The notes beneath the pieces are model-generated. The model was not told where the DNA came from. It searched no databases and saw only the letters and a program-made list of their open reading frames with translations. The position numbers and the translations under genes are program-made. Source: Gymnodinialimonas phycosphaerae (GTDB lineage: Bacteria > Pseudomonadota > Alphaproteobacteria > Rhodobacterales > Rhodobacteraceae). From it: 64,000 nucleotides of DNA. The stretch spans positions 2,604,001-2,668,000 of the forward strand of contig NZ_JAIMBW010000001.1 of assembly GCF_019195455.1 (NCBI RefSeq). The letters run 5' to 3'. Shown here one piece after another: positions 2,725 through 18,633 of this stretch. How positions within the stretch are numbered: the stretch's first letter is position 1; every line of letters starts with the position of its first letter.

Positions 2725-2846
2725 TTCAACGCCCCTCATCGCTGTAAGACCCGAGATCGTTCATCGGGACCGAGCCGCACCCCTGCAACCCAGCACTCGC
2801 GCCAATGGCGCGCATGCCGACGCACATTCTACTTTCATTGTCCAAA

Positions 2847-2866
2847 CTGGTATACTATCATACCAG
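2847..2866. promoter_or_regulatory. Operator-like inverted repeat between uxuA and kdgF
   Basis: CTGGTATACTATCATACCAG has perfect 7-bp arms (CTGGTAT / ATACCAG) around a 6-bp centre. It sits in the divergent promoter region, about 120 bp from the uxuA start and 33 bp from the kdgF start. The TGGTATAC half resembles operators of FadR-subfamily GntR regulators of hexuronate genes (UxuR/ExuR-type TGGTATACCA). The same half-site recurs at 15106 and, as CTGGAATACTA, at 15127 and on the minus strand at 18619. I infer it is bound by the GntR protein encoded at 16550-17236. Confidence 0.65.
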
Positions 2867-2898
2867 ATAGGAAAAGCCCGGAATGAAAGAGTAGGACC

Positions 2899-3210
2899 AT
2901 GGCAGAATTCCCCATCGTGGAGGCGGGCAAAAACGTCACGCGTCAGGTGCTTGCAGATCATCCTGACCTGATGGTCGTGGCGTTCACGTTCGGCGCTGAA
3001 GGCGCGGAGGGCGCGCTACACAACCACGTCCACGTCCAGTCCACCTTCGTCGAAAGCGGGCGCTTTCGCTTCACGCTGGATGGCGAGCCGATGGAAATCG
3101 GCCCCGGGGATAGCTTCGTGATCCCCTCCAACGCGGTCCATGGCTGCGTGTGCTTGGAACCCGGGCGCCTCGTGGATTGCTTCACGCCCCGCCGCGACGA
3201 CTTTCTGTAA
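2899..3210 (+). CDS. kdgF: KdgF-like cupin, unsaturated uronate lineariser
   Basis: A 103-residue single-domain cupin. Metal-binding motif 1 is HNHVHVQSTFVESGRF, motif 2 is GDSFVIPSNAVHGC, and the C-terminus VDCFTPRRDDFL is the signature end of KdgF proteins. KdgF converts the 4,5-unsaturated monouronates released by lyases into the linear 5-keto-4-deoxyuronate. Its place directly before kduI and kduD, which take that product further, agrees with this role. It is first in a plus-strand operon and has a start-proximal GTAGG-type ribosome site. No signal peptide is seen, so it is cytoplasmic. Confidence 0.85.
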   Translation: MAEFPIVEAGKNVTRQVLADHPDLMVVAFTFGAEGAEGALHNHVHVQSTFVESGRFRFTLDGEPMEIGPGDSFVIPSNAVHGCVCLEPGRLVDCFTPRRDDFL

Positions 3211-3236
3211 CGCCCTGACCCTGCAAGGACGACCCC

Positions 3237-4064
3237 ATGACCCTGAAAACCGAGACGCGCTACGCCATTGATCCTGCCCACACCAAGACGCTCGACACCG
3301 AGGGGCTGCGCAGCCATTTCCACAAGGATGGGCTGTTCGCGGAGGGGGAGATCAACCTCGTCTACACGCACTATGACCGCTTGATCCTTGGCTCTGCCGT
3401 GCCGGGCGCGGGCACGCTGACGCTGGATCACATGGCAGAGACCGGGACGCCGAATTTCCTCGATCGCCGCGAGATGGGCATCTTGAACATCGGTGACACG
3501 GGACAGGTCAGCGTCGGCGGCGACACCCACACATTGGAGCGGGGTGAACTGCTCTACATCGGAATGGGTGCGGGCGCGGTAACATTCTCGGGCGCGGGTC
3601 GGTTCTATATCACCTCTTCGCCCGCCCACCGCACCTGCCCCACCAAGCTGATCAAACTGGACCAGGCGCGCCGGGTCGAGTTGGGATCTCGCGAGGCGGC
3701 CAATGAGCGGGTGATCATCCAATTCCTTCATCCTGAGGTTTGTGAGACCTGTCAGCTGTTGATGGGCTACACGCAGTTCGCGCCCGGGTCCTTGTGGAAC
3801 ACGATGCCCGCGCACCTGCACGATCGCCGGATGGAGGCCTACCTCTATTTCGACGTCCCCGAGGACGCACGCGTCTTCCACTTCATGGGCAAACCTGAAG
3901 AAACCCGGCATCTGGTGATGGCCAATGAAGAGGCCGTGATCTCTCCGCCGTGGTCGATTCACTGCGGTGCGGGCACCTCGGCCTATACGTTCTGCTGGAC
4001 GATGGCGGGCGACAACGTCGACTTCGCCGACATGGACATGGTCGGCATGGACGCATTGCGATGA
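3237..4064 (+). CDS. kduI: 5-keto-4-deoxyuronate isomerase
   Basis: The 275-residue protein isomerises 5-keto-4-deoxyuronate (DKI) to 2,5-diketo-3-deoxygluconate. The zinc-binding block MPAHLHDRRMEAYLYFDV and the closing PPWSIHCGAGTSAYTFCWTM, which ends with DNVDFADMDMV, are standard KduI sequence, and the length is standard. A ribosome site (AAGGACGACCCC) precedes the ATG. The stop overlaps kduD by four bases (ATGA). KduI/KduD handle products of glucuronate- or galacturonate-containing polymers; alginate-derived DEH is usually reduced by a different enzyme, so this argues for a non-alginate substrate. Confidence 0.95.
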   Translation: MTLKTETRYAIDPAHTKTLDTEGLRSHFHKDGLFAEGEINLVYTHYDRLILGSAVPGAGTLTLDHMAETGTPNFLDRREMGILNIGDTGQVSVGGDTHTLERGELLYIGMGAGAVTFSGAGRFYITSSPAHRTCPTKLIKLDQARRVELGSREAANERVIIQFLHPEVCETCQLLMGYTQFAPGSLWNTMPAHLHDRRMEAYLYFDVPEDARVFHFMGKPEETRHLVMANEEAVISPPWSIHCGAGTSAYTFCWTMAGDNVDFADMDMVGMDALR

Positions 4065-4786
4065 CCCCTTTCTCGCTGGACGGACAAACGGCGCTGGTGA
4101 CGGGGGCCAACACGGGCATCGGACAGGCGATTGCCGTGGCCATGGGTCGTGCCGGTGCCCATGTAATCTGTGCGGGGCGATCGTCGTGTGACGAGACGGT
4201 TGCCATGATCGAGAAGGCCGAGGCGCTGACGCTCGACTTTGCCGATCCAATGGCGGCAAAAGATGTGTTCGCCGCGCGCCGGGTCGATATCCTCGTCAAC
4301 AATGCGGGCATTATCCGGCGTGACGATATCGTCGATTTCTCCGAAGCCGATTGGGATGCCGTCCTGGACGTGAACCTGAAGGCCGCGTTCTTCACCTGCC
4401 AGGCATTCGCCCGCGCCGCCCTGCCACGCGGCGCCGGGAAGATCGTCAACATCGCGTCCCTGTTGTCGTTTCAAGGCGGCATCCGCGTACCAAGCTACAC
4501 CGCTTCCAAGCACGGGATTGCCGGGCTGACCAAGATCATGTGCAACGAGTGGGCGGCGAAGGGCATCAACGTCAACGCCATTGCACCGGGCTATATCGAG
4601 ACGAACAACACTGAGGCCCTGCGCGCAGACCCGGATCGCAACAAGGCCATTTTGGATCGCATCCCTGCGGGCCGCTGGGGCAAGGCCGATGACATCGCCG
4701 AGACGGCAGTGTTCCTGTCCTCGCCTGCGGCAAATTACATTCACGGCGCGGTGCTGAACGTGGACGGCGGGTGGCTGGCGCGCTAG
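4061..4786 (+). CDS. kduD: 2-deoxy-D-gluconate 3-dehydrogenase / DKII reductase
   Basis: A 241-residue classical short-chain dehydrogenase. It has the NAD-binding TGANTGIG, the structural NNAG motif, a catalytic Ser in NIASLLSFQGG and the YTASK active-site motif. KduD reduces 2,5-diketo-3-deoxygluconate to KDG, the point where this branch meets the UxuA branch. The start MTPFSLDGQTALVTG overlaps the kduI stop and is preferred over longer in-frame starts. The protein ends VDGGWLAR, typical of KduD. Specific KduD assignment relies on the coupling to kduI. Confidence 0.9.
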   Translation: MTPFSLDGQTALVTGANTGIGQAIAVAMGRAGAHVICAGRSSCDETVAMIEKAEALTLDFADPMAAKDVFAARRVDILVNNAGIIRRDDIVDFSEADWDAVLDVNLKAAFFTCQAFARAALPRGAGKIVNIASLLSFQGGIRVPSYTASKHGIAGLTKIMCNEWAAKGINVNAIAPGYIETNNTEALRADPDRNKAILDRIPAGRWGKADDIAETAVFLSSPAANYIHGAVLNVDGGWLAR

Positions 4787-4796
4787 GCTGACTAAC

Positions 4797-5333
4797 ATGG
4801 ACATCGTGTCGTTCGACAACCTTGAGGTCCCGCCGGATCTTAAAGCCTGTGCCGATGCGCTGCTGCGCGAGGCTAATGGGCAAGACGGCGACGCTGATGA
4901 TGTGGAAGTAGATACAGACGGCAACCCGCCGGAGGCTTACCGCGCGTTTCTGGCCGTGGACGCGTCCGGCAAAGTCGTCGGACACCTCGCCGCGTACATC
5001 CGGGGCGTGGACCAAGGCAGCGCTTCCATGACCGTCGGCATGATCGGCAACGTCGCGACGCGCAAGACCTTTCGGCGACGCGGGATCGCAAAGTCTTTGG
5101 TGGACGCGTCCCATCGGTACTTCCGGGATGCGGGGGCCCGGTTCTCGATACTGTTTGCCTACGATCTACCGGTCTATGTGTCCTATGGGTATCGGCTGAT
5201 GCGCGATCAGGTGACGTTCGTAGAGCGCGCCGCAGCGGTCAAGACGTGCGTCCTTCCCGGCAGTATGCTGTGCGAATTGACGACGCGCCCCCAGCGTGCG
5301 GGCACCGTCAATCTAACCGGACCCCCGGTATGA
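4797..5333 (+). CDS. GNAT-family N-acetyltransferase
   Basis: A 178-residue protein with a GNAT fold. The acetyl-CoA pyrophosphate-binding motif is in MIGNVATRKTFRRRGIAKSL (about residues 82-101), followed by a YRYFRDAGARFSILFAYDLP-like beta5 region and YVSYGYRLMRD. The start is only 10 bp after kduD, so it is very likely in the same transcript. The substrate is unknown. The C-terminus (RAGTVNLTGPPV) is not part of the fold. It is the first of three consecutive, dissimilar GNAT genes. Confidence 0.8.
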   Translation: MDIVSFDNLEVPPDLKACADALLREANGQDGDADDVEVDTDGNPPEAYRAFLAVDASGKVVGHLAAYIRGVDQGSASMTVGMIGNVATRKTFRRRGIAKSLVDASHRYFRDAGARFSILFAYDLPVYVSYGYRLMRDQVTFVERAAAVKTCVLPGSMLCELTTRPQRAGTVNLTGPPV

Positions 5334-5354
5334 GAGGCCGCGTGTGATGACCCC

Positions 5355-5795
5355 ATGATCCGCCCTGCGACACAGGATGATGTGGTCGCAATTGCAGACA
5401 TCTCGCGGCTTGCGCGCACAACGGCAATGCCTTGGCTGCCGGTTCTGCATGCCATTGAAGGGGACCGAAAGCTCTTCGACACCCGCGTGTTGCCGCAGGA
5501 CGATGTGGTCGTCGCCGAAACAGATGGCGTGATCGCGGGCTTCATGGCCCGCCACGGGGACTGGATCGAGCATCTTTATATCGCCCCCGCCCACCAGCGG
5601 CAGGGTTTGGGCGCAGCCTTCATCGCTCGCGCAAAGGCACAGGTGCCTTACCTGCAACTGTGGGTTTTCGCCAGAAACCACGCGGCGCAAACCTTCTACG
5701 CCGCCCACGGATTTGAAGAGGTCGAACGGACCGATGGGCAAAACAATGAAGAGAAGACCCCCGACATCCGCATGGAATGGCGTGCCCTCTCATGA
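5355..5795 (+). CDS. GNAT-family N-acetyltransferase
   Basis: A 146-residue small GNAT protein starting MIRPATQDDVVAIADISRLA. Motif A, LYIAPAHQRQGLGAAFIARA (about residues 75-94), contains the Q/RxxGxG/A acetyl-CoA loop. The C-terminal NHAAQTFYAAHGFEEVERT is the usual family end, as in RimI-like enzymes. It lies 21 bp after the previous GNAT gene and 30 bp before the next. The acceptor is unknown; small polyamine, antibiotic or peptide N-termini are all possible. Confidence 0.82.
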   Translation: MIRPATQDDVVAIADISRLARTTAMPWLPVLHAIEGDRKLFDTRVLPQDDVVVAETDGVIAGFMARHGDWIEHLYIAPAHQRQGLGAAFIARAKAQVPYLQLWVFARNHAAQTFYAAHGFEEVERTDGQNNEEKTPDIRMEWRALS

Positions 5796-5825
5796 CGTGT
5801 CATGCGTTGCCAGGGGAAAACCGTG

Positions 5826-6377
5826 ATGCCTGAACCCTACGATATTCGCCCAGAGGTCCGCCGGGACCACGTCGCAATCGACGCGGTTCACAATGCGGCG
5901 TTCGGCAGTGATGCTGACATCCCCGCCCTTGTCCGTGACCTGCGCGCCGCAGACGCGCCGTTCCCAACACTTTCCGTCGTGGCAACTCATGACGGGACGG
6001 CGGTCGGACACGTCATGGCGTCCCACGCGTGGCTCGACGGACCACGCGAGTTGATTGACGTCCTGGTCCTCAGCCCCCTTGGCGTGCATCCGGCGCACCA
6101 GCGCAAAGGGCTTGGCACCGCGTTGATAGCTGCGGTGCTGCGTGCCGCAGAGGGCAAAGGCGCGCCGATGGTTCTGTTGGAAGGCAGCCCCGGATACTAC
6201 GGCGCGCGTGGGTTTGAACCGGCAAGTGCGCAAGACATCCGCCGCCCATCCCTGCGCATCCCATCGCCCGCTTTCCAGGTGGCCACCCTGCCCGCCTACA
6301 CGCCGGATATGACCGGCACGTTTATCTACCGCGATGTACATTGGCGCCACGGGGTGGGTCTTTACAAGACGTCCTAG
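5826..6377 (+). CDS. GNAT-family N-acetyltransferase, YhbS-like
   Basis: A 183-residue GNAT protein. The start MPEPYDIRPEVRRDHVAID is chosen over an ATG eight codons earlier because it matches usual starts of this family. The acetyl-CoA loop is HPAHQRKGLGTALIAAVLRA and the beta6 region reads VLLEGSPGYYGARGFEPASA, both typical of the YhbS group of uncharacterised acetyltransferases. Its TAG stop is shared back-to-back with the TAG stop of the converging gene through a CTAG tetranucleotide at 6374-6377. Its substrate is unknown. Confidence 0.82.
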   Translation: MPEPYDIRPEVRRDHVAIDAVHNAAFGSDADIPALVRDLRAADAPFPTLSVVATHDGTAVGHVMASHAWLDGPRELIDVLVLSPLGVHPAHQRKGLGTALIAAVLRAAEGKGAPMVLLEGSPGYYGARGFEPASAQDIRRPSLRIPSPAFQVATLPAYTPDMTGTFIYRDVHWRHGVGLYKTS

Positions 6378-7042: not shown

Positions 7043-7271
7043 CGTCCGAGCAACAGTACAGCGTGTCCCTGCAGTCCCGCCGCTCCTGTTCCGGATCCGG
7101 GTCCTAGCCGAGCGTCCTTCAGGCCCGGCGTCGCGTTTCAGGACACTGACCCAGCGGATTGCCGACCACTATCACGCAAGGCCGCAACTATCGTTGGCCT
7201 GGGAATTGATCGAACTGATGGCCCAGGCGATAGGACGAACGGTGAAATCGCCTGGACCGTGGCTTTTCATA
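7043..7271. other. Non-coding gap with no recognised feature
   Basis: These 229 bp between the SDR stop and the start of the DUF2262-like gene hold no convincing reading frame, hairpin or repeat that I can see. Given the duplicated SDR tail next to it, it may be the scar of a rearrangement, but nothing here can be assigned. Confidence 0.4.
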
Positions 7272-8015
7272 TCAGCTGAACAGCATCCCGCCGTTGATGT
7301 CGATGTTGGTGCCGGTCATGAATGCGCTGTCCTCACAGGCAAGAAACAGGACGAGGTTCGCCACATCCATCGGCACGCCTTGCCGTTTCACGGGGGCGTT
7401 TGCCTCGAACGCGCGGCGGCCCGCGTCGGGTGTGTGGATGTTGTGGAAATCCGTATCGACCATGCCGGGGCACAGACCGTTGACGCGCACGTCCGGCCCA
7501 AGTTCCTTCGCCAAGCCCCGCGTCATCGTCATCACCGCGCCCTTGGAGGACGCATAAGCGACCGAGCCGGGGCCACCGCCATCACGCGCCGCTTGGCTGG
7601 CGAGGTTGACGATCGTGCCCTTACCCATGTGCGGGCCCACGGCCTTGACCATCAGGAAGGTACTGGTCACGTTCAGGGCCATCACGTCGTTCCAATGCTC
7701 CAGCGACATCTCGGCGAAGGTCTTGCGCGCGATCAGGCCGCCAGAGTTGTTGACCAGCACATCGACGGACCCGAATTCTTCAACCGTTTTCCCCACGAGC
7801 GTGTCCACGCCCTCTTGTGTGGTAAGATCGCCCTGCACGGCGATCGCCTTGCCGCCAGCGGCCGTGATTTCGGCCACTGTTTCGTCCGCGCCTTTGGAGC
7901 TTGCGAAGTAGTTTATCGCGACGTTCGCGCCTTCCGATGCCAGCAGGACAGCGCATGCGCGTCCAATGTCGCGCCCGCCGCCGGTGATGATTGCTGTTTT
8001 GCCCGCAAGTTTCAT
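7272..8015 (-). CDS. Short-chain dehydrogenase/reductase in the oligo-uronide operon
   Basis: A 247-residue classical SDR. It has the nucleotide-binding TGGGRDIG, an NNSG motif (VLVNNSGGL), catalytic Ser in NLASQAA, the YASSK motif, and the C-terminal MTGTNIDINGGMLFS. The residues after the second beta strand (NYFASSKGADET) suggest NADP(H) preference. It is the sixth gene of the minus-strand transporter operon, 31 bp after the lyase gene, with a good ribosome site (AAAGGAAAA). By position it should act on a lyase product or on the released keto-sugar acid; the exact substrate cannot be read from sequence. Confidence 0.85.
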   Translation of the reverse strand: MKLAGKTAIITGGGRDIGRACAVLLASEGANVAINYFASSKGADETVAEITAAGGKAIAVQGDLTTQEGVDTLVGKTVEEFGSVDVLVNNSGGLIARKTFAEMSLEHWNDVMALNVTSTFLMVKAVGPHMGKGTIVNLASQAARDGGGPGSVAYASSKGAVMTMTRGLAKELGPDVRVNGLCPGMVDTDFHNIHTPDAGRRAFEANAPVKRQGVPMDVANLVLFLACEDSAFMTGTNIDINGGMLFS

Positions 8016-8046
8016 GGTGTTTTCCTTTTGTTGTTACAGATCTGGC

Positions 8047-10362
8047 CTAGGCGCCAACATCGAAAGTCTTGGGAACGACAACCTTGAAGCTTTGGTCGTC
8101 TGCATCAGTGAAATAGAGGTCGCAGTCGTAGCCCTGGTCATCCAGGAAGCTGAACACGCGGCGTGGGTCGCTGTTGGGATACGGCACCAGAAGCGTGGCG
8201 ATCCGGTGGCGCGTGGCCTTGGGGAACTTGGCCGTCAGGCAGGTGCTGACGGGCAAGCCTTCGAATTCCGCCGGGTCCACACCGGGGAAGCCGGTGTTCT
8301 GGCTCAACGTCGGCTGGCCTGCCTCGGACCACAGGAATTTGCCGTAGAAGCCGGCACGCTCTCCGGCGTAACGGAAGGTGCTGTCGCCCAGGGTCATGGG
8401 CGCATTGGCGTGCAGCAGCCAGTAGATCTCCACCGGATCGGAGGCGTCGACATTGTCGACGATCACGAAATACTGGTTGCGCACGAAATAGACGTCGCGG
8501 GTAACGGATGTGACCTCGGGCGACATCGTGCGGTAAGCCGCCGTCGCATCTCCTTGCATGAAGATGTGATCTTCGCGCGCCTCGGCCACGTTGATTTGTC
8601 CGGCCGAGGCCATCGCCATGACCTTGTCCTTGCCCGCGTATTGACCCTTCCCGTTGATCAGGATCGCGTTCTTCGACACCGTTTGCCGCCGCCACGCCTG
8701 GTGCATGGTGGAATTGAACGCGACGTAGTGGCCTGATTGAATGGCCAGGTCCTCACCAAAACCCGCCAGACAGAAGGCGTTCTGGTCGCCGTGGGAGTGG
8801 CTGATTGAGCCGTAGGGCGAAGATTTCATTACGAACTGGATGTGGTTATCGGGGTCCTGCATCCGGTGCTGGATCGCGGCCCACCCAATGCCCTTGAACC
8901 AGCGCAACTGATCGTCATCGGAAGGCGGAACGGCCTCGACCACCGGGAAATCGGTGCGGTAGGCCAGTTCGTCAAAATTGAAGTCCCACCAGCCCCAATT
9001 GTAGAATGCCATTTCAGTGCCCGGATTGGTGCGCTTGATCTCGTCATAATACCATTGATACGCGCCGTTGCCCGTGACGCCCGCGAACTGACGCAGGTTG
9101 TAGCCGATCTTGACCGAGGGCAGATCACCCATGGTGCTGTCATCGCCAAAGGTGGCGCGCTTCGTGTCTGGGGCCTTCGTGTAAAGCGGAAAATCGCCCG
9201 TGCGCTGGAAGAACGGGCGCTGGTAAAGATCGATGCCGGAATAGCCCTTCAGCAGGTTCGCGGCGTCGATCAGGTAGGCCATTCCCGTCATCCAGTAGTG
9301 CGGCCCCTCGGCCCAACCTCCATCGGCATCGCCCCAGGGCGAATAAACGGTGGATAGGAACTCGACGGAGTAATGCAACCAATCCTTCGCCTCGGGCGCG
9401 TCATCCAAAAGCGCGATGCAGGCGGGGATCAGGACGGCAGAGACGGCGCGGACGGCATGGCTGTCGAACGGGAACAGCTGGATGTTGGCGTTCTTGATGA
9501 TGTGATCGGCGGTCTCGCGGGTGCGAGCCAGAAGCGCCTCGCGCACGGTCGCCCGTTCGTCTTCGGTCACCTGATCGAACAACCAGTCATAGCCCCACGC
9601 CAGCGCAAGGTTCACGCGGAACGCCCATTCGTCGGTGTAGGCGCGGGACGTGGTGCCCGTGGGGTTCCAGGACGCCGCCTCCAGCAACCACGCCTTGGCG
9701 TGGTCGAGCATCGCCTGATCATTAGTCACCTTTCCGCCCACCGCGAGGTGACGGATCGCGTAGAGAAGTTCCTGACAGTCGATATAGGTCTGCCGCCAGA
9801 TCGGCGCGGTGCGCTTGTGGCCGGGGTAGCCTGCGGGCTCGGCCATGACATCACGGTCCATCCAAGGCGTCACGGACTTCTCATAGAAGATGTTCCATGT
9901 ATGGGTTGTGGGATCAGCGGCCACCTCCTTGCGGAAGCTATCCAGCCGTTCCGGCGTGAGCCACAGGCGCGGATGCGCGCGGGTGGTTTTGGCGAAGCGG
10001 TCGGCGCGCGAGGGCAGCGGTGTCTCGGGCAAGCCCTCGGTGATGGTGAATGTGCGCGAAGTGCTCCACGCGGTTACGGGCATGCCCTTGGCGTCGCACA
10101 CGGCGTAGGACCAGTAATACTCACCCGCCGGAAAGGTCACATCGGGGGTGAAGAAATTCAGCGGGATGTCTGCGAATGTCTCGGTCGCCTTGGCCGGGTA
10201 AGATGCGTCCGCACTTACGCGCAGCACAAATCGCGCCTCATCCTCGATCACGGGAAGCCATGTAAAACGTGGCGGATTCTCGGTGATCACGTGGCCCGCA
10301 TCAGGAGCGTACTGGATCGTGAGACGGCCTGTCTTCGGCTCATCAAGCATGGGGGCGGTCAT
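8047..10362 (-). CDS. Heparinase II/III-fold polysaccharide or oligosaccharide lyase
   Basis: A 771-residue protein. The start MTAPMLDEPKTGRLT is preferred over a longer frame reaching into the preceding gene. Domain order by eye: an N-terminal beta domain of DUF4962 type (about 15-130, with WLPVIEDEARFVLRVS), a helical toroid (about 150-450), and a beta-sandwich heparinase II/III-like domain containing the SISHSHGDQNAFCLAGFGED block (near residue 524) and WRRQTVSKNAILINGKGQ. Enzymes of this build (PL15/PL17/PL21 neighbourhood) cleave uronate-containing glycans by beta-elimination. No signal peptide is present, so it probably degrades imported oligosaccharides in the cytoplasm. The specific polysaccharide is not known. 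Confidence 0.82.
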   Translation of the reverse strand: MTAPMLDEPKTGRLTIQYAPDAGHVITENPPRFTWLPVIEDEARFVLRVSADASYPAKATETFADIPLNFFTPDVTFPAGEYYWSYAVCDAKGMPVTAWSTSRTFTITEGLPETPLPSRADRFAKTTRAHPRLWLTPERLDSFRKEVAADPTTHTWNIFYEKSVTPWMDRDVMAEPAGYPGHKRTAPIWRQTYIDCQELLYAIRHLAVGGKVTNDQAMLDHAKAWLLEAASWNPTGTTSRAYTDEWAFRVNLALAWGYDWLFDQVTEDERATVREALLARTRETADHIIKNANIQLFPFDSHAVRAVSAVLIPACIALLDDAPEAKDWLHYSVEFLSTVYSPWGDADGGWAEGPHYWMTGMAYLIDAANLLKGYSGIDLYQRPFFQRTGDFPLYTKAPDTKRATFGDDSTMGDLPSVKIGYNLRQFAGVTGNGAYQWYYDEIKRTNPGTEMAFYNWGWWDFNFDELAYRTDFPVVEAVPPSDDDQLRWFKGIGWAAIQHRMQDPDNHIQFVMKSSPYGSISHSHGDQNAFCLAGFGEDLAIQSGHYVAFNSTMHQAWRRQTVSKNAILINGKGQYAGKDKVMAMASAGQINVAEAREDHIFMQGDATAAYRTMSPEVTSVTRDVYFVRNQYFVIVDNVDASDPVEIYWLLHANAPMTLGDSTFRYAGERAGFYGKFLWSEAGQPTLSQNTGFPGVDPAEFEGLPVSTCLTAKFPKATRHRIATLLVPYPNSDPRRVFSFLDDQGYDCDLYFTDADDQSFKVVVPKTFDVGA

Positions 10363-10404
10363 CTGGACACTCTCGGAAATAGGGGTGGTGACGTAGGCGA
10401 TTTG

Positions 10405-10434
10405 GGCGTGCGGCCCGGTGACAGGCCGCACGCC
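10405..10434 (-). terminator. Stem-loop between binding-protein and lyase genes
   Basis: A perfect 11-bp inverted repeat (GGCGTGCGGCC / GGCCGCACGCC) with an 8-base loop lies 18 bp after the binding-protein stop and 43 bp before the lyase start. There is no T-run, so it is more likely an mRNA-stabilising or partially attenuating hairpin that raises binding-protein expression over downstream genes than a full terminator. An equivalent hairpin follows the second binding-protein gene (49319-49346). Confidence 0.65.
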
Positions 10435-10451
10435 GGATTGCTTAGGCGGCT

Positions 10452-12017
10452 TTAGCCGTACTGGCGGGCGTAGGCGGAGTTCATCACTTCGATGACCTGG
10501 TCGTAGCCCATGTCGTTGAGGGTCTCGATGTAGTCGGCCCAATCCTCTTCAACGTCGCCGGATCCAAGGATCCACGCCTGCTGACGCTCCAGCATGTAGG
10601 TGCGGATAGACGGCCAATACCGGTCATAGATCGCCTGCTCTTGCTGGTTGAACGCCACGCCCAGGAACTGGTCAACCAGCAGGTCGTTGGCGGAATACAA
10701 CTCGATGCCCTCGCGAGCAGCCTCCGCCGTCCACTGCCATTCGTAGCGGTAGTCCTGCCAGTAGCCGCGCTGGATCTGCGCGCCTTCCAGATACATCTGG
10801 CTGTTGACGGCCTGATCGGAATTCAACACCTCGTCGGTGAAGATCGGCTCTCCATCGACCATGTTCCACGTGCGGCCTTCAACGCCGAAGTTGGCAAGGT
10901 TGCGGCCTTCTTCGGTGAACCAGAAGTCAAAGTACCGGATCGTCTCGATCACGTGCTCGTTGGAATAGCTGATCGCCCAACCATCGGGCTTGATCGGGAT
11001 GCGACGATGCTCTTCCATGCGCACACCACCGGCGGAGGCAGGCGGCAAGAACGGGATGAAGTTGAAGCCCGGAACGGCTTCCGCCAACGCAGAATTGTAG
11101 CCGGACGTCGACGCAAACCAATCATGGGTCATACCGCCAAGGTTCTCGGACAGGAGGTAGTCCCGCGAGGAGGAACCGCGCGTGAAGATCTCGGGATCAA
11201 TCAGGCCTTCCTCATACCACTGAGCGATGTTGGACAGGCCCACGCGATAGGCGTCCTGCGCATAGGGGTGAACGATCTCACCTGCATCGTTGACGTAGAA
11301 ATCGTGGTAGGTGTCAGAGCCGGACGACCGGGCGTCCCACAGCGTCAACAGGCGGTTCACCTCTTGCCACTGACGCGCGAAGTACGGAATCTCGTCCGCT
11401 TCGCCGTTGCCGTTGGGATCGCCATCGCGGAACGCAACCAGCGTGGTGTAGAGCTCGTCCACGTTTTGCGGCTGCTCAAGACCAAGCGCATCCAGCCAGT
11501 CCTGACGGATAAACCACGCGCGGCCGAATTCACCATCGGGCAGGTATGGAATATAGTAATAATTGCCGTCATAGGCCGAGATCGCGGCTTGAAGATCCGG
11601 GTTTTCATCCCAGAACGCCTGTATATTCGGCGCATGCTCTGCGACCAGATCGTTGAGCGGCAGGAACGCGCCCTCGGGCCCGAACTGGTTGACTGGCTGT
11701 TGGATCAGGTGCCCGCCGACGATGTCGGGCATCTCGCCCATCGCCAGAAGCAGGTTCATCGCTTCGCCACTGTCGGTGGTGTTCGCGCCCATGGTGTCGT
11801 CGACCAGGCTGATGCCGGTCAAGCGACGCGCTTCCAGCTCGACCGGATAGATCTCGCTGGTTTCGCCGCCAACGCCGTAGCCTTGGGCACGGGGCCAGTG
11901 CATGTGGATCGTCAGCTCAAGCGGCTCTTCCACGATCATCAGATGGCCGTCTGCGAAGACGGGGCTGGTCAGCGCCGTTGTCGCCAGAATGGCCGAGGCT
12001 AGTGAAACTTTACGCAT
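10452..12017 (-). CDS. Extracellular solute-binding protein, LplA/AlgQ type
   Basis: A 521-residue periplasmic binding protein with a Sec signal peptide (cleavage likely after SPVFA, residue 22). It carries a DPNGNGEADEIP loop near residue 200, which matches the calcium-binding loop of alginate-oligosaccharide binding proteins AlgQ1/AlgQ2. Length and overall layout fit the large LplA/AlgQ binding proteins rather than the shorter maltose-type ones. It is fourth in the operon, after ATPase and two permeases, with a strong ribosome site (AGGGAGGACTACC). By context the ligand is an oligo-uronide, probably with an unsaturated end. Confidence 0.88.
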   Translation of the reverse strand: MRKVSLASAILATTALTSPVFADGHLMIVEEPLELTIHMHWPRAQGYGVGGETSEIYPVELEARRLTGISLVDDTMGANTTDSGEAMNLLLAMGEMPDIVGGHLIQQPVNQFGPEGAFLPLNDLVAEHAPNIQAFWDENPDLQAAISAYDGNYYYIPYLPDGEFGRAWFIRQDWLDALGLEQPQNVDELYTTLVAFRDGDPNGNGEADEIPYFARQWQEVNRLLTLWDARSSGSDTYHDFYVNDAGEIVHPYAQDAYRVGLSNIAQWYEEGLIDPEIFTRGSSSRDYLLSENLGGMTHDWFASTSGYNSALAEAVPGFNFIPFLPPASAGGVRMEEHRRIPIKPDGWAISYSNEHVIETIRYFDFWFTEEGRNLANFGVEGRTWNMVDGEPIFTDEVLNSDQAVNSQMYLEGAQIQRGYWQDYRYEWQWTAEAAREGIELYSANDLLVDQFLGVAFNQQEQAIYDRYWPSIRTYMLERQQAWILGSGDVEEDWADYIETLNDMGYDQVIEVMNSAYARQYG

Positions 12018-12047
12018 GGTAGTCCTCCCTATATGCGGTAGTTCAGG

Positions 12048-12929
12048 TTATTCCTTCACGCCGCCCAACATGATGCCCTTGCTGAAATACTTCTGCAGGA
12101 ACGGGTAGATGAGCAGGATGGGGATGATCGAACAGACAATGATCGCAGCACTGACGGTCTCGAACGAATAGGTGGCATCCAAGAGCGTCGCGGCGAATTC
12201 CTCGTCGTCGCTGAGCTCCAGAATGACATGGCGCAGGTAAACTTGCAGCGGGATCTTGTCCTCGTCTTGCAACAACACCATGGCCCAGAAGAAGCCGTTC
12301 CAGCGCGACACGATGCAGAACAACGCGACCGTGGCGATCGCGGGCTTGGAGAGTGGCATGTAGACCTTCCACAGCACCTGGAATTCATTGGCGCCGTCCA
12401 TACGGGCGGCCTCTTCGAACGATTGCGGGATACCCTCGAAGAAGTTGCGCAAAAGGATGATGTTGAAGCCGTTTACGGCGAAGCCGATGATGATGCCGAA
12501 ATAGCTGTCCAGCAGCCCCAGATCGCGCATGTTCAGGAAGAACGGGATCATGCCGGCGTGAAACCACATGGTGAACGCCACCATCAGGTTCCAGAAACGG
12601 CGCCCGTACAGCTGGCGGCGCGACAGGGCGTAGGCGCCGGGGATGATGAACGCGAGGCTCATCAGCGTGCCGCCGATGGTGTAGATGAACGTGTTACCGT
12701 AGCTGACCCAGAACATCCGCTCGGACAGGACCTGGGCGTAGGCGTCCAGTGTGAAGCCTACCGGCGTCAGAACCACGTTGCCCGCCCGCGCCTCGAAACC
12801 GGTGCTCATCGACAGGGACGCGATGTAGATGAAAGGATAAAGCGCCGAGATCGTGAAAACCGCGATCAGGAACATGTTGAGAATGACGAAGGCTTTGTCA
12901 CCGCGCGAATAGAGGTTCATGTTGGCCAT
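12048..12929 (-). CDS. ABC permease, YtcP/AlgM2 type
   Basis: The 293-residue inner-membrane protein has six predicted membrane segments. The cytoplasmic EAA loop, FEEAARMDGANEFQVLWKVY, contacts the ATPase. The C-terminus PFLQKYFSKGIMLGGVKE is the hallmark of the YtcP/LplC subfamily. It pairs with the LplB-type permease 12 bp upstream and the binding protein 30 bp downstream. Together they form the CUT1-like importer for the oligosaccharides cut by the lyase. Confidence 0.92.
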   Translation of the reverse strand: MANMNLYSRGDKAFVILNMFLIAVFTISALYPFIYIASLSMSTGFEARAGNVVLTPVGFTLDAYAQVLSERMFWVSYGNTFIYTIGGTLMSLAFIIPGAYALSRRQLYGRRFWNLMVAFTMWFHAGMIPFFLNMRDLGLLDSYFGIIIGFAVNGFNIILLRNFFEGIPQSFEEAARMDGANEFQVLWKVYMPLSKPAIATVALFCIVSRWNGFFWAMVLLQDEDKIPLQVYLRHVILELSDDEEFAATLLDATYSFETVSAAIIVCSIIPILLIYPFLQKYFSKGIMLGGVKE

Positions 12930-12941
12930 GGCTCTGTCCCC

Positions 12942-13943
12942 CTACCACAAGGATGTGCGCGAATAGCGCTTGGAAATTGCGTTGGCGCTCATCACCAGGA
13001 CGAAGGCCACGACCGCGTTGAACAGGCCCGCGGCGGCAGCAAGGTCGTATTGGCCGCCCTGCAAGCCCTGACGATAAATGAACGTGTTCACGACGTCCGC
13101 CGTCTCGTAGGTGGCGGGCTGATAGAGCAGGATGATCATCTCGAAGCTGACTTCGAGCATGTTGCCGATGCGGATGATCAGCATGATGATGATCGTTGGC
13201 AGGATCGACGGGATGGTGATCTTCCACATCATCTGCCAGCGGCTGGCACCATCCACCACGGCGGATTCATAGAGCGTCGGTGAGACACCCGCGATAGCCG
13301 CGAGGTAAACGATGGATTGGAACCCGGCCTCTTGCCAGATCGTAGTGCCGACAAAGATCGGCCTGAACCATTCGGGCCGCGTCAAGAAGTAGATCGACTC
13401 ACCGCCGAACCATTCCAGTACCGTGTTGACGATACCCGCCGAGGGCGAGAAGCCCGTGATCACGATGCCCGCGATGATCACGGATGAGATGAAGTGCGGC
13501 AGGTAGACGATGGTTTGCGCCGTCTTCTTGAACCATTCGCGCAGGATCTCATTAAACATAAGCGCAAGAATGATCGGCATCGGGAAACCGAACAGCAGGC
13601 TTAGGCCCGAGATATAAATGGTATTGCGAAGGGCGCGGAGGAATTGGTCGTTGTTGAAAAGCGTCTCGAAATGCTCGAACCCGATCCACGGGCTGGCGGC
13701 GACGCCGCGGAAGACCGAATAATCCCTGAACGCGATCTGAAGTCCGTACATCGGCTTGTAAAGGAAGACGAGCAGCCAGATGATCGTGGGGATCAGCATG
13801 GCGTAGAGCTGCCATTCCCGCTTCAGGTGGTCCCCAACCCGCACCATGCGGCTGGGGCGTGTTGTGTGCAGAGCCTCTTTGGCAAGTAAAACGGTCTCTT
13901 CCGTCTTGCCGGGGCCGCCAACATTTGTGCCCGGGGTACTCAT
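12942..13943 (-). CDS. ABC permease, LplB/AlgM1 type
   Basis: A 333-residue integral membrane protein with a 35-residue cytoplasmic N-terminal extension, then the LplB-typical REWQLYAMLIPTIIWLLVFL segment and the conserved YKPMYGLQIAFRDYSVFRG. The EAA loop is LYESAVVDGASRWQMMWKIT. The start overlaps the stop of the ATPase gene by four bases (ATGA). With its YtcP partner it builds the transmembrane channel of the oligo-uronide importer. Confidence 0.92.
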   Translation of the reverse strand: MSTPGTNVGGPGKTEETVLLAKEALHTTRPSRMVRVGDHLKREWQLYAMLIPTIIWLLVFLYKPMYGLQIAFRDYSVFRGVAASPWIGFEHFETLFNNDQFLRALRNTIYISGLSLLFGFPMPIILALMFNEILREWFKKTAQTIVYLPHFISSVIIAGIVITGFSPSAGIVNTVLEWFGGESIYFLTRPEWFRPIFVGTTIWQEAGFQSIVYLAAIAGVSPTLYESAVVDGASRWQMMWKITIPSILPTIIIMLIIRIGNMLEVSFEMIILLYQPATYETADVVNTFIYRQGLQGGQYDLAAAAGLFNAVVAFVLVMSANAISKRYSRTSLW

Positions 13944-15043
13944 GCGACACGCGTTTGGCCGGACAGGGCCAATCCAGTTTGCGCGTCGAAGACCTTGATC
14001 AGATCCGGCTGCGCCGTGAAACCTGTCACGGCATCCAGCTTTTCGATGTTGCCGAGTGTCTCGGTTCGGATCACGAAGGGCTCTCCGCCGACGGTCATGT
14101 GTAACAACGCCTCGGAACCGAGCGTTTCGACAAGGTCCAGATCGCCCATCACAGCCCCATCGGTAGCGTCCGTCACGATCTGGCTATACTCGGGCCTGAT
14201 GCCGACGATCACTTCGCGACCCACTGCGTTTTGCAGGCCCGACAGTGGCGCAAGCGCGATCTTCTGCCCCGCGAATTCCGCCATCGGCCCATTGGTCCCA
14301 TCGGCAATCGTCGCCTTGATCTGGTTCATCGGGGGCGCCCCCAGGAAGCCCGCGACGAAGGCATTGGCGGGATTGAGGAAAAGCTCCATCGGGGTGCCGA
14401 TCTGCTCGATCCGGCCGTCATTCATCACGACGATCCGGTCCGCCAGCGTCATTGCCTCCACCTGATCGTGGGTCACGTAGATGCTGGTCACGCCAAGGCG
14501 TTTGTGCAGGCGCTTGATCTCGGCGCGCATCTGGGTGCGCAGCTTCGCGTCAAGGTTCGAGAGCGGTTCATCAAAGAGGAAAACCTTGGGGCGGCGCACG
14601 ATGGCACGACCCATGGCAACGCGCTGACGCTGACCACCGGACAGGTCTGCGGGCCGACGTTCAAGGTACTCTTTCAGGCCCAGAATACCTGCGACTTCCT
14701 CGATCGAGTCCTCGATGACCTGCTTGCTCTCCTTGCGGATGCGCAGGCCGAAGGCGATATTTTCGGCCACGTTGAGATGCGGGTAAAGCGCGTAGTTCTG
14801 AAACACCATCGCGACATCGCGATCTTTGGGAGCGACCCGGTTCATCACACGGCCGTCAATCGTCAGATCGCCGTCCGAAATTTCTTCCAGGCCAGCAATC
14901 ATCCGCAGCGTTGTGGACTTGCCACAACCAGACGGGCCAACGAGGACCACGAACTCTTGTTCCTGCACCTCAAGATCAATCCCGTGAACGACCTGGACCG
15001 CGCCATACGCCTTCACGATGTTCTTCAAGATAACGCCGGACAT
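13940..15043 (-). CDS. Sugar ABC transporter ATPase, UgpC/MsmX/AlgS type
   Basis: A 367-residue ATPase. Walker A is GPSGCGKST, the Q-loop MVFQNYALYPH, the signature [14 protein letters not shown], Walker [13 protein letters not shown] and the switch [11 protein letters not shown]. The C-terminal 120 residues form the regulatory MOP/OB domain common to MalK/UgpC. The start MSGVILKNIVKAYG was chosen over an upstream ATG because GGAGGGG sits just before it. It is the first gene of the importer-lyase operon. Its promoter is shared with the divergent glucarate dehydratase gene and contains two operator-like sites. Confidence 0.94.
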   Translation of the reverse strand: MSGVILKNIVKAYGAVQVVHGIDLEVQEQEFVVLVGPSGCGKSTTLRMIAGLEEISDGDLTIDGRVMNRVAPKDRDVAMVFQNYALYPHLNVAENIAFGLRIRKESKQVIEDSIEEVAGILGLKEYLERRPADLSGGQRQRVAMGRAIVRRPKVFLFDEPLSNLDAKLRTQMRAEIKRLHKRLGVTSIYVTHDQVEAMTLADRIVVMNDGRIEQIGTPMELFLNPANAFVAGFLGAPPMNQIKATIADGTNGPMAEFAGQKIALAPLSGLQNAVGREVIVGIRPEYSQIVTDATDGAVMGDLDLVETLGSEALLHMTVGGEPFVIRTETLGNIEKLDAVTGFTAQPDLIKVFDAQTGLALSGQTRVA

Positions 15044-15105
15044 GGCCCCTCCCCGAGCTTGAATATACGCCCCCATCCCAGCAGGATGATTCGCGCTCCC
15101 TCAAG

Positions 15106-15142
15106 TGGTATACTAGTTTGCTTAATCTGGAATACTAGTATT
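15106..15142. promoter_or_regulatory. Two operator-like sites in the importer / glucarate dehydratase promoter region
   Basis: Site A (15106-15117) reads TGGTATACTAGT. Site B (15126-15142) reads TCTGGAATACTAGTATT and ends in a perfect 12-bp palindrome, AATACTAGTATT (15131-15142). Their 5' parts repeat the TGGTATACTA half-site found at 2848, and ATCTGGAATACTAGT (15125-15139) is found again exactly, on the other strand, at 18619-18633. The sites lie 63-100 bp from the ATPase start and 50-87 bp from the glucarate dehydratase start. They probably control both directions through the GntR regulator encoded at 16550-17236. Confidence 0.7.
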
Positions 15143-15192
15143 GATTTTTTCTTTTTGAGTGGCCTAGGGTGAGTAACCCGAGGAGTCACCGC

Positions 15193-16455
15193 ATGAGAAT
15201 TACTGAGGTTATCGTCACACCGATCGCGATCCCGGACGTGCCCCTGGCAAACACCAAGGGCGTGCATCCGTCGGTATTTCTGCGCGCCGTCATCGAGGTG
15301 AAAACAGACACCGGCCTTGTCGGTCTGGGCGAGGCCTATGGCGCAAAGCGTACGCTGACGGGCTTGCAGACCGTGGCCCCCACGCTTGAGGGGCTAGATC
15401 CCTATGATCTGCGCGACTTGCGTCGCCGCGTGGAACAAGCGCTGCCAAACAGCGGTGGCGTGAACGCCCCCACGGCCCTGGCCGATCACAAGGTGATCGA
15501 CGTCGTCTATTCGGCCTACGAGATCGCCTTGCTGGACATTCGCGGCAAGGAAGTTGGGCGCCCGCTTTACGACCTGCTTGGCGGCGCCGTGCGCAAGACG
15601 ATCCCTTTCGGCGGTTATCTCTTCTACAAGTTCGCCAAGCAGGATCTGACCTTCGGCCCCGATATCATGGGAGAGGTCATGACGCCCGACACCCTTGTGG
15701 CGCAGGCCCGCGAATTTGCGGCCGAGTACGGCTTCAAATCCTGGAAGTTGAAGGGCGGCGTCCTGCATCCCGACGAAGAAGTCGAAACGCTTTTGAAGTT
15801 GCGAGAGGTCTTCCCCAACGACGGCCTGCGCATCGACCCGATGGGGGGCTGGACCGTTGAGACCTCTCTTAAGGTGATCGACCAGCTTGGCGGCACCGCG
15901 GGGGGCGTTCTGGAATACCTTGAAGACCCGGTGCGTGGGATGGACGCAATGTCGGAGCTGTCGGCACAAACTGATCTGCCATTGGCCACCAATCTTGTGG
16001 TGGTGGAGTTCGAGCAAATCATTGAGGCCGTCAAGAAAGACGCCGTGCAGATCGTGCTGTCGGATCATCATTATTGGCGCGGTGCGACGGGGGCCGTTCA
16101 TCTGGGCGAGATCTGCCGTGCGGCAGGATTGGGCGTGTCGATGCACTCCAACTCTCACCTCGGGATATCGTTGGCCGCGATGCGCCACGTGGCCGCCGCC
16201 ACCCCGAACCTGACCTATGATTGCGACACCCATTACCCCTGGTCGACGAAAGAGATCATCAAGGGCGGTCGCCCGACGTTCAGGAACGGGACGCTACAGG
16301 TGCCCGAGGGGCCCGGACTTGGGGTGGAGCTGGACCACGAAGCCGTGGCCGAGCTTCATGCGTTGTACAACAATGCCATGGTGAAGGACCGCGACGACAC
16401 GGACGAGATGATGAAATACATTCCGGATTATGTCCGCAAAGTGCCCAGATGGTAG
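15193..16455 (+). CDS. gudD: Glucarate dehydratase-family enolase
   Basis: The 420-residue enolase-superfamily protein has the KLK motif of the mandelate racemase/glucarate dehydratase branch (KSWKLKGGVLHPDEE), metal ligands in RIDPMGGWTVE, YLEDPVRG and ATNLVVVEF, and the HSNSHLGISLAAMRHVAAA block with the catalytic His typical of GlucD. It should convert D-glucarate (or L-idarate) to 5-keto-4-deoxyglucarate in the cytoplasm. The start follows GAGGAG; a longer frame beginning at 15169 lacks a ribosome site. It is divergent from the importer operon and followed by the gntR gene. A neighbouring GlucD-like specificity such as galactarate cannot be excluded. Confidence 0.85.
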   Translation: MRITEVIVTPIAIPDVPLANTKGVHPSVFLRAVIEVKTDTGLVGLGEAYGAKRTLTGLQTVAPTLEGLDPYDLRDLRRRVEQALPNSGGVNAPTALADHKVIDVVYSAYEIALLDIRGKEVGRPLYDLLGGAVRKTIPFGGYLFYKFAKQDLTFGPDIMGEVMTPDTLVAQAREFAAEYGFKSWKLKGGVLHPDEEVETLLKLREVFPNDGLRIDPMGGWTVETSLKVIDQLGGTAGGVLEYLEDPVRGMDAMSELSAQTDLPLATNLVVVEFEQIIEAVKKDAVQIVLSDHHYWRGATGAVHLGEICRAAGLGVSMHSNSHLGISLAAMRHVAAATPNLTYDCDTHYPWSTKEIIKGGRPTFRNGTLQVPEGPGLGVELDHEAVAELHALYNNAMVKDRDDTDEMMKYIPDYVRKVPRW

Positions 16456-16549
16456 ACGTTAGCTGCTTGAAGTGCTGGCCATTGCCGACGAAAGGCTGGT
16501 CATTCGGAAAACCGCGAATTATGTCCGAACTCGAAAGGAAGGCCCAAAC

Positions 16550-17236
16550 ATGGCATCAGTAGTGCGCGCCAGAGATCGCAAGACCAGCGTCGATGTGGTG
16601 TTCGATCACCTCTACAGTTCGATCGTGAAGCTTGAATTGCTTCCCGGCGACAAAATCTCGGAAGCAGAGATCGCAGCGCAGTTCGGCGTGTCTCGGCAAC
16701 CGGTTCGGGATGCCTTCAGCCGTCTTGAGAACCTTGATCTGCTGCTGATCCAACCGCAGAAGGCCACCGAGGTCAAACGGTTCTCTTTGCATGAAATTAC
16801 AAAGTCGCGTTTTGTGCGGGCAAGTGTCGAAGCAGAGGTTCTGCGCCGGGCCGCCAAGGAAGCGACACCTGCGGATGGGACTTTGCTGGACGCCTGCCTT
16901 GCACAGCAGGCGGAGGTCGTCGCGACCTTGGACTTTGAGGCATTCGGCAAGCTGGACTACGAATTTCACGAGACGTTGTGCAAAGTGGCCAAGGTGGAAT
17001 TCGCCTTCGAGGTAATCTCTTTCGAGAAGGCCAATGTCGACCGGCTGTGCATGCTGAGCATTTCCACCAAGGAAGATCGGATGGAGCAATTGCTGGCGGA
17101 TCACACGGCCATCGCGGATTGCGTGAAAGCCGGTGACGGCGAAGGGGCAGTGGCGGCCGGGATGATCCATCTGTCACGGCTGGATGCGACGATCCAGAAA
17201 ATCTGCAAAGACAACCCCGACTACTTCGAAGCCTAG
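16550..17236 (+). CDS. GntR-family (FadR subfamily) transcriptional regulator
   Basis: A 228-residue regulator with an N-terminal winged helix (ILKLELLPGDKISEAEIAAQ-like region with FGVSRQPVRDAFSRLENLDLL) and a C-terminal all-helical FCD ligand domain. FCD metal/ligand residues are suggested by DYEFHETL and by DHTAIADCVKAGDGEGA. The start MASVVRARD follows AAGGAAGG, and upstream in-frame ATGs are rejected. It is 94 bp after glucarate dehydratase. It probably senses a uronate or keto-deoxy acid and binds the TGGTATACTA-type sites in the region. Its stop codon is shared through CTAG with the converging MATE gene. Confidence 0.88.
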   Translation: MASVVRARDRKTSVDVVFDHLYSSIVKLELLPGDKISEAEIAAQFGVSRQPVRDAFSRLENLDLLLIQPQKATEVKRFSLHEITKSRFVRASVEAEVLRRAAKEATPADGTLLDACLAQQAEVVATLDFEAFGKLDYEFHETLCKVAKVEFAFEVISFEKANVDRLCMLSISTKEDRMEQLLADHTAIADCVKAGDGEGAVAAGMIHLSRLDATIQKICKDNPDYFEA

Positions 17237-18582
17237 ACGTCGTCGACGTTCGCCCGTTTCCAATCGCCGCGCCAAAGCCGCCTGTGGAACATCGGAAGCT
17301 TTACGATCTCTTCCATCAGAAACAGCGAAAACACCCAGGCCACGGGGACGTCCCACACAAGCACAAGCAGCAGCGTCATGGGCACCTTGAACAGCCATTG
17401 CGACGCCACGAAGATGTTCATGACACGCAAGGTATCCCCTGCGGCCCGCAGGGTTTGGCCACAGATGGCGTTCGAGCCCTTTGGGAATGGCAAAAGCAGT
17501 AGCGTCGGCAAGAACATCCAAAGAGCGGCGCGCGTCTCGACCTCCAACCCCGCGTAGATCCACGGCGACAGCAGGCATAGAACCAGGTACATTCCCGAGA
17601 CGACGGCGGCGGCCACGAATGCCGCCCGCCATGCCCGGCTGAGGAACGTGTCCAATGTAGCCTCATCTGCCCCGGCGCCCAAAAGCTGCGCCACCAGAAT
17701 GCCCGTCGCCTGCGCCCAACTCATGCCGAAGGTTCCCGCGACCTGAACCCATGGCATGATAAGCGTAATCGCCGCGAAATCATTGATGCTCATCCGGGCA
17801 TAGATCAACACGCACACCTGCGTGCCGATTGTCATGCTGAGGAACGTGCCCGCGATGGGGAGCGAAAAGAGCAAATGGCGCTTGAATGCCATGGCGAAGC
17901 TGTCCCGCAACCAGCCTTTCACGTCGAGGAACAACCGGTTCTCGCGGAAGAATTTGACCCCCATGAACATGACCCGCGTCAGCGAGGCGATGGCGCTTCC
18001 ATATGCAGCCCCCGCCACCCCAAGCTCTGGCGCGCCGTAGAGGCCGTAGATAAGGATGATGCTTGCGCCGATGTTGATCGGCATGGCGATCAGATAGCTG
18101 TAGAAGGTCACGCGCGGGTTGCCGCATCCGTTGAAGTGGCTGCCCAGGCATTGGCCGATCGCTTCTGCGAAGACGACGATCAGAAAGACCTGCAGATACG
18201 ACATGGCCTGAGCAGCAATCCAGTCAGTCTGGGCCGCGCTTTCAATCACCGCGCGCCCGAATAGCGCCACAAGGCCTACGCCGATCAGGACCGATCCCAA
18301 ATTGATCACCAACCCGCAATAAAACGCTGTCTTCAATCTTACCTGCCCGGTCGCTCCGAACGACTGGGCGATCCGGATTTGGGTCGCGTTCGAGAAGGCA
18401 AAGAGGATTCCTAGCAATAGCCCCACCAATGCACCGGCCAACCCCATTGCGGCCAATGCCTCTTCCCCAAGGGCCGAGATCAGGTAGGCGTCGATCACAA
18501 CGATGCCGTGCAGCATCAACGCCTTGAGCGTCAGCGGCCAGGCTACGGCGTAGATCGCCGAAACGTTTGGGGCAGTCGTCAT
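17233..18582 (-). CDS. MATE-family efflux transporter
   Basis: The 449-residue membrane protein has about twelve predicted membrane segments in two related halves. It has the usual MATE start (IYAVAWPLTLKALMLHGIVV) and the MGLAGALVGLLLGILFAFSN segment. MATE proteins export cations, drugs or metabolites using Na+ or H+. It converges on gntR, sharing the CTAG stop. Thirty-seven bp before its start lies a 15-bp exact copy of the operator-like sequence from the importer promoter, so it appears to belong to the uronate regulon, which is unusual for this family. The exported compound is unknown. Confidence 0.87.
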   Translation of the reverse strand: MTTAPNVSAIYAVAWPLTLKALMLHGIVVIDAYLISALGEEALAAMGLAGALVGLLLGILFAFSNATQIRIAQSFGATGQVRLKTAFYCGLVINLGSVLIGVGLVALFGRAVIESAAQTDWIAAQAMSYLQVFLIVVFAEAIGQCLGSHFNGCGNPRVTFYSYLIAMPINIGASIILIYGLYGAPELGVAGAAYGSAIASLTRVMFMGVKFFRENRLFLDVKGWLRDSFAMAFKRHLLFSLPIAGTFLSMTIGTQVCVLIYARMSINDFAAITLIMPWVQVAGTFGMSWAQATGILVAQLLGAGADEATLDTFLSRAWRAAFVAAAVVSGMYLVLCLLSPWIYAGLEVETRAALWMFLPTLLLLPFPKGSNAICGQTLRAAGDTLRVMNIFVASQWLFKVPMTLLLVLVWDVPVAWVFSLFLMEEIVKLPMFHRRLWRGDWKRANVDDV

Positions 18583-18618
18583 ATCGGGGAAATCCGTTCA
18601 ATCCACTCCACAATGCCG

Positions 18619-18633
18619 ACTAGTATTCCAGAT
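18619..18633 (-). promoter_or_regulatory. Operator-like site upstream of the MATE gene
   Basis: The minus strand reads ATCTGGAATACTAGT, identical over 15 bp to 15125-15139 in the importer/glucarate dehydratase promoter region. It is 37 bp upstream of the MATE start codon. This is a single half-site arrangement with no second copy visible nearby. Confidence 0.65.

Follow-up and report, generated by a model that had tools for sequence, protein, structure and literature searches.

A predicted GntR/FCD regulator and its conserved candidate operator at the alginate-oligosaccharide locus of Gymnodinialimonas phycosphaerae

Alginate catabolism genes in Zobellia galactanivorans are repressed by AusR, a GntR-family protein that is released by alginate products, and the alginate system of Sphingomonas sp. 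A1 has its own transcriptional regulator, algO (available portion of PMC8286568). The alginate locus of Vibrio sp. C42 carries gntR genes together with kdgF and a gene for a reductase of 4-deoxy-L-erythro-5-hexoseulose uronate (DEH); two of the three gntR genes rise with alginate and were deleted, and no operator is defined in the main text as far as it was available (PMC13390454). Among FadR-subfamily regulators, the UxuR/ExuR-type proteins of hexuronate genes have A/T-rich TKGT/ACMA sites, and in UxuR the GT and AC are separated by two bases (available portion of PMC4494728). NanR of Escherichia coli, a FadR-type repressor of acidic-sugar genes, uses GGTATA direct repeats spaced by approximately half a helical turn; one of its domains contacts GGTATA while the second sits on non-consensus sequence, and it needs a 32-residue N-terminal extension (available portion of PMC8012715). 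In the available portion of PMC10016265 we did not find the operator of E. coli UxuR, and no mention of uronates was found in PMC5343134. Here we describe four operator-like sites and a GntR-family gene in a 64,000-base pair (bp) stretch of Gymnodinialimonas phycosphaerae (contig NZ_JAIMBW010000001.1, positions 2,604,001 to 2,668,000; hereafter the window), at a locus predicted from its genes to be one of alginate-oligosaccharide utilization.

The four sites are, with high probability, operators of the GntR/FCD protein encoded at 16550-17236, which would make the locus a self-regulated regulon under a FadR-subfamily repressor released by a breakdown intermediate. As far as the cited texts were available, the closest systems compare as follows. 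AusR is likewise a GntR-family regulator found with alginate genes, but it belongs to flavobacterial alginate polysaccharide utilization loci, whereas the present locus is alphaproteobacterial and of the AlgQ-type ABC kind; the two are likened by description. AlgO regulates an alphaproteobacterial alginate system, as the protein studied here is predicted to do, but AlgO is LacI-type rather than GntR/FCD. As in Vibrio sp. C42, a GntR gene lies inside an alginate locus with kdgF; here an operator is proposed. No description of this operator was found in the open-licence literature, among the matches listed.

The original prediction had placed the core TGGWATACTA at four sites, and all four are exact: 2848, 15106 and 15128 on the plus strand and 18621-18630 on the minus strand. 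The form is TGGTATACTA at the first two and TGGAATACTA at the others. The 15-bp identity claimed between 15125 and 18619 also holds, as ATCTGGAATACTAGT reads the same at 15125-15139 (plus) and 18633-18619 (minus). With up to one mismatch, the 10-mer has five matches in the 64 kb compared to 0.85 expected, a number reached in 0 of 100 shuffles; with up to two mismatches, the 14-bp consensus described below matches at 2846, 15104, 15126 and 18619 only. The sites are all intergenic and close to gene starts, as had been stated, at distances of approximately 30-107 bp: operator 1 precedes the kdgF ATG by approximately 40 bp and uxuA by approximately 107 bp, and the nearer site of the 15.1-kb pair precedes the start of the enolase-family open reading frame (ORF) by 30 bp and that of the ATPase by 87 bp.

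Matches in the rest of the genome (4,324,088 bases in two contigs) are few. Exact TGGWATACTA occurs five times, four of them within this 16-kb stretch, compared to three for the reversed motif used as a control; the remaining one falls within an ORF resembling adenylate kinase by eye. With no more than one mismatch, CTRGNATACTAGT has four matches, of which three are at this locus; with up to two mismatches it has 56, against 511 for the control. One genomic match at 2745706 (TTGGGATACTAGT, L130), immediately beyond an SDR-like ORF and overlapped by other open frames, was tentatively judged to be due to chance. Because this locus supplied the motif, its rarity is by itself no independent proof; the conservation tests are independent.

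A search of named genomes for the regulator gave 33 loci (627,960 bp), in which exact TGGWATACTA occurs 25 times and its reversed control 0 times (77 versus 29 at one mismatch). The region upstream of the orthologous GntR/FCD gene was then compared in 26 of these loci (L030, L032, L033 and L035-L038 being omitted as distant) and in 23 of 30 gntR loci from an even draw across the family (omitting our own L069 and L093-L098, which are 50-55% identical). An operator with up to two mismatches is found within 400 bp upstream of gntR in 20/26 named and 19/23 family loci, and inside gntR in none of the 49 genes; simulated first-order sequences gave 0/1300 and 1/1150, respectively. Of 295 genomes, 30 have a close orthologue, and 21 of these carry CTGGWATACTAGT (20 of 29 when our own is excluded) versus 5 of the 265 others (p 1e-20), while the reversed control divides 3/30 versus 28/265 (p 1.0). 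GntR scoring covered nine candidates per genome in most cases and was repeated with all 21 in our own. Thirty of the 34 family sites were examined: in 24 cases a homologue of a window gene starts no more than 600 bp downstream, while one site is inside such a homologue and five are near none. The promoters that keep the operator in relatives are those of ABC/gntR, ABC/enolase, SDR or MATE; exact operators also occur at the ABC ATPase/enolase promoter in G146, G151, G243 and G205 (L041-L043, L045) and 32 bp before a MATE homologue in G243 (L065). For the importer, lyase, SDR, enolase-family, MATE and gntR genes, neither of two signs that would speak against a regulon was seen: equal matching inside coding regions genome-wide, or loss of the sites in relatives that retain the genes.

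Several observations weigh against this interpretation. Three of the four window sites have two mismatches to the consensus, and a consensus scan for a sigma-70-like promoter in 2740-2900 and 15030-15200 found none. The cut-off for a close orthologue (best GntR match E 1.1e-63 or better) was chosen after the list had been seen. Family totals are non-discriminating (CTGGWATACTAGT has 34 occurrences in 26 genomes and the reversed control 32 in 31), and distribution alone discriminates. Finally, 10 of the 49 orthologues have no operator upstream of gntR at two mismatches. Four of these (L009, L071, L072, L080) carry a site, as the window does, ahead of the enolase gene located upstream of gntR; of the others, L026 has a variant with three mismatches, L084 has a site downstream only, L007, L008 and L010 have sites elsewhere in the locus only, and L020 has none.

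The presumed regulator has an N-terminal PF00392 domain (57.2 bits) and a C-terminal PF07729 domain (73.0 bits), both over the cut-off, which places it in the FadR subfamily. Together with FCD fold matches, this bears out the earlier claim of a FadR-type GntR among the sites. Its start codon was assumed to be at 16550, with a longer ORF starting at 16472. In the AlphaFold model (mean pLDDT 91.4), the N-terminus is short and disordered, at approximately nine residues; the model's best Foldseek match is 7u5q (Brucella melitensis), followed by VanR Atu1419, with McbR, PmiR and TM0439 structures also matched. An Asp/His ligand pattern is found in the pocket of metal-binding FCD regulators, and the presumed metal ligands D137, H141, H186 and H208 are invariant in 67/67 aligned rows.

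We infer from these sequence comparisons that this GntR binds the sites. It is improbable that they are real operators of a different FadR-family protein or of several such proteins. Paralogues of 31-53% identity do lie near similar sites in relatives, and in G078 and G084, which lack a close orthologue, an exact site precedes uxuA by 15-17 bp; against this, the remaining FadR relatives in our own genome are at most 34% identical (next best E 2e-18, all 21 candidates scored), and the motif follows the present orthologue and lies at the promoter of that gene or of its operon.

Operator architecture was derived from a table of 83 distinct sites with up to one mismatch (window's first 20 kb, L006-L034 and L039-L098). 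These sites form a 14-bp near-palindrome, (A/T)CTGGTA-TACTAGT, with little information outside; the overall consensus is the 14-bp near-palindrome ACTRGTA-TACYAGT, with FadR-type spacing. The stronger right half of the logo is partly an artefact, each site having been oriented by that half. The 10-mer had been taken for a half-site, a reading ruled out by symmetric 14-mers in relatives (ACTGGTATACCAGT, ACTAGTATACTAGT) and by information over the whole dyad; it is instead the centre of the dyad and nearly the whole operator. Similarly, the inverted repeat noted at 2848 is present, but it is composed of two dyads: operator 1 and an overlapping inverted dyad 8 bp apart, giving CTGGTATACTATCATACCAG at 2847-2866.

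Tandem pairs are common in relatives. Neighbouring sites in the table are spaced by 20 bp (17 pairs), 33 bp (9), 13 bp (6), 22 bp (2) or 8 bp (2), with other spacings once each, which suggests several dimers per promoter. The halves are also unequal: 64 of 81 sites have G in one half and A in the other at position 4, whereas 39.8 would be expected if the halves were independent (nominal p = 3e-8, with no correction for relatedness). In L026, L080, L091 and L092, T at position 4 (ACTTGTA...) accompanies R or V at regulator residue 58; this was rejected as independent support from co-evolution, as the four loci need only one change on the tree (support 68/54).

TRGT-AT-ACYA fits the FadR-subfamily palindrome TKGT/ACMA, with two to three bases between GT and AC, although R/Y at the second position fits K/M only partly. 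Compared by operator spacing only, and from partial text, the protein resembles UxuR/ExuR in being an FCD-domain GntR of sugar-acid metabolism with the same GT-AC spacing; the target genes differ, as do the outer operator bases relative to the UxuR consensus. The GGTATA core is shared with NanR as described in the available text, as would be several dimers per operator and an asymmetric pose; by this likeness asymmetric binding is plausible here. Unlike in NanR, the sites are 14-bp dyads, the commonest spacings are 20, 33 and 13 bp with 8 bp only twice, and the N-terminus is approximately nine residues.

TTGACA occurs 14 times around the 83 sites, eight times exactly 8 bases before the operator and four times at -24; at -8 it implies that the operator fills the promoter spacer. 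Operator 1 has TTGTCC at this offset. TGnTATACT resembles an extended -10, and TGGTATACT differs from the consensus of such an element at one position, so the motif could be a promoter element rather than an operator. This is very improbable: both arms are conserved including ACTAGT, symmetric forms and tandem repeats exist, TTGACA where found is mostly 8 bases before the 14-mer, too near for the motif to serve as the -10, and its presence follows the regulator gene. A different conserved promoter was observed approximately 700 bp after gntR in L007-L010 (e.g., L007:11428), with TTGACA at -24 before ACTAGTATACCTGT; these loci also have a 31-33% identical GntR paralogue beside an alginate ATPase, with its own ACTAGTATATCAGT site.

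The features of the locus are listed in Table 1.

Table 1. Genes and candidate operators of the alginate locus and adjoining region, in window coordinates
Feature	Coordinates	Strand	Match or remark
uxuB-like, mannitol dehydrogenase family	105..1547	+	
uxuA, mannonate dehydratase	1576..2739	-	PF03786, 389 bits
Operator 1	2846..2859	+	ACTGGTATACTATC, 2 mismatches to 14-bp consensus; divergent uxuA/kdgF region
kdgF-like cupin	2899..3210	+	Pfam Cupin_2; name kdgF inferred
kduI	3237..4064	+	PF04962
kduD-like SDR	4061..4786	+	
SDR	7272..8015	-	Best PDB 4yqy 'Putative Dehydrogenase'
Oligoalginate lyase	8047..10476	-	1077 bits to 3a0o 'Oligo alginate lyase'; DUF4962 + Hepar_II_III_C
Solute-binding protein, AlgQ1/AlgQ2-like (alginate)	10452..12017	-	560 / 553 bits
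ABC permease	12048..12929	-	
ABC permease	12942..13943	-	
ABC transporter ATPase, MalK type	13940..15040	-	ORF can open at 15076
Operator 2	15104..15117	+	AGTGGTATACTAGT, 1 mismatch; divergent ABC ATPase/enolase promoter
Operator 3	15126..15139	+	TCTGGAATACTAGT, 2 mismatches; 22 bp after operator 2
Enolase-superfamily (MR_MLE) gene	15169..16455	+	Nearest proteins named glucarate dehydratase; same strand, upstream of gntR
Presumed regulator, GntR winged helix + FCD (FadR subfamily)	16550..17236	+	Pfam GntR, FCD
MATE-family transporter	17233..18582	-	PF01554
Operator 4	18619..18632	-	TCTGGAATACTAGT, 2 mismatches; 37 bp before MATE

Six genes, from the ATPase through the two permeases, binding protein and lyase to the SDR, form a minus-strand run from 15040 to 7272 with gaps of 31 bp or less. 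The AlgQ-like importer and oligoalginate lyase together mark this as an alginate-oligosaccharide utilization locus. The uronate regulon of the original prediction thus keeps its sugar-acid scope, with a substrate that the AlgQ and lyase matches specify more precisely as alginate oligosaccharide. We take the lyase to be of family PL15, and the AlgQ1/AlgQ2 structures matched here presumably come from Sphingomonas sp. A1; the SDR at the end of the run may, by inference only, be a DEH reductase. The MATE assignment stands, but the proposed export follows from the family name only. A MATE homologue is present in 14 of the 33 gntR loci.

The site between uxuA and kdgF is weaker and lineage-specific. 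The original prediction had included kdgF-kduI-kduD and uxuA in one regulon; the importer, lyase, SDR, enolase, MATE and gntR part of that claim is strongly supported, but this site has two mismatches and is largely not conserved in relatives that keep the genes. Of 29 other kduI loci, a single one, that of G204 (L128), has an exact copy of the composite before kdgF, CTRGTATACTATCATACYAG, and there it is also before kdgF, and the 12-bp operator CTRGTATACYAG is found with up to one mismatch in 3/29 (L100, L113, L128). The neighbourhood of kduI in relatives usually contains a different GntR: a homologue lies within 10 kb of kduI in at least 26 of the 29 loci (coordinates compared by hand), and a sister motif, ACTRGNATAYYAGT, which is probably read by that paralogue, occurs in 10/29 (L100-L128) versus 7/580 shuffled loci. 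These counts all favour a narrower regulon of importer, lyase, enolase, gntR and MATE, with the kdgF/uxuA site fortuitous or inactive. We regard this as unlikely, since a site with up to two mismatches is rare by chance (1 in 2450 simulated 420-bp sequences), this one sits just before kdgF, and our own genome has no dedicated kduI-linked GntR: the paralogue's best match here is the alginate regulator (40%), followed by nothing above 28% (E 1e-17).

The kduI operon appears to change regulator between relatives, and the reading favoured over a fortuitous site is that the alginate regulator took over the kdgF operon in this lineage. A more specific proposal is tentative, and we hold it to be somewhat less probable than its negation: that a family of alphaproteobacterial alginate repressors binds an intrinsically asymmetric operator (one half CTGGTA, the other CTAGTA) and assembles cooperatively on arrays spaced by 13, 20 or 33 bp, and that in this lineage the repressor captured kdgF-kduI-kduD/uxuA after loss of the kduI-side paralogue.

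No operator adjoining the uxuB-like gene was found in the window scan at up to two mismatches. Three consecutive ORFs follow kduD on the same strand (4797-6377); the first has a GNAT acetyltransferase domain and the others look similar by eye. The uxuA homologues behind the exact sites of G084 (L050) and G078 (L052) have 49-50% identity, and in G078 a 37% identical GntR is next door.

Under the proposed mechanism, one dimer would occupy each 14-bp near-palindrome. Without alginate, the regulator would sit on the promoters and repress the importer-lyase-SDR operon, its own enolase-gntR operon and MATE and, in this lineage, also the kdgF-kduI-kduD operon and uxuA; repression is read from site placement. 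A breakdown intermediate bound in the metal-binding FCD pocket would then release the repressor. This is most likely 2-keto-3-deoxygluconate or DEH, a guess from the pathway.

Other loci extend these observations. In Tateyamaria, an operator at L024:11311 (with a similar site at L021:11291) has TTGACA at -8 and lies approximately 130 bp before an ORF (L024:11455-12435) that resembles a TRAP-type solute-binding protein, which suggests a second importer in the regulon of this genus. In Aureimonas (L032:9919), ACTGGTATGCTAGT is found just upstream of a 39% identical homologue, with kduD, kduI, kdgF and uxuB within 8 kb; this arrangement implies that the operator type reaches beyond the family. 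Two metagenome-assembled records labelled Magnetovibrio and Granulosicoccaceae (L011, L015) have Rhodobacteraceae-like regulators. The layout of L011 is nearly identical to that of Sulfitobacter dubius L012, which may reflect either a mislabelled record or transfer of the locus.

As judged from conservation, the operator and regulator appear to be a real, conserved pair of the alginate locus, of a kind already known, with a lineage-specific extension and an unusual asymmetry. For specialists in regulation, the interest lies in the operator asymmetry with tandem arrays and in the apparent rewiring of the kduI operon, the remainder being an ordinary sugar-acid regulon. For a Rhodobacteraceae-type family living on algal carbon, the pair makes the control of alginate use testable at the level of regulator and operator.

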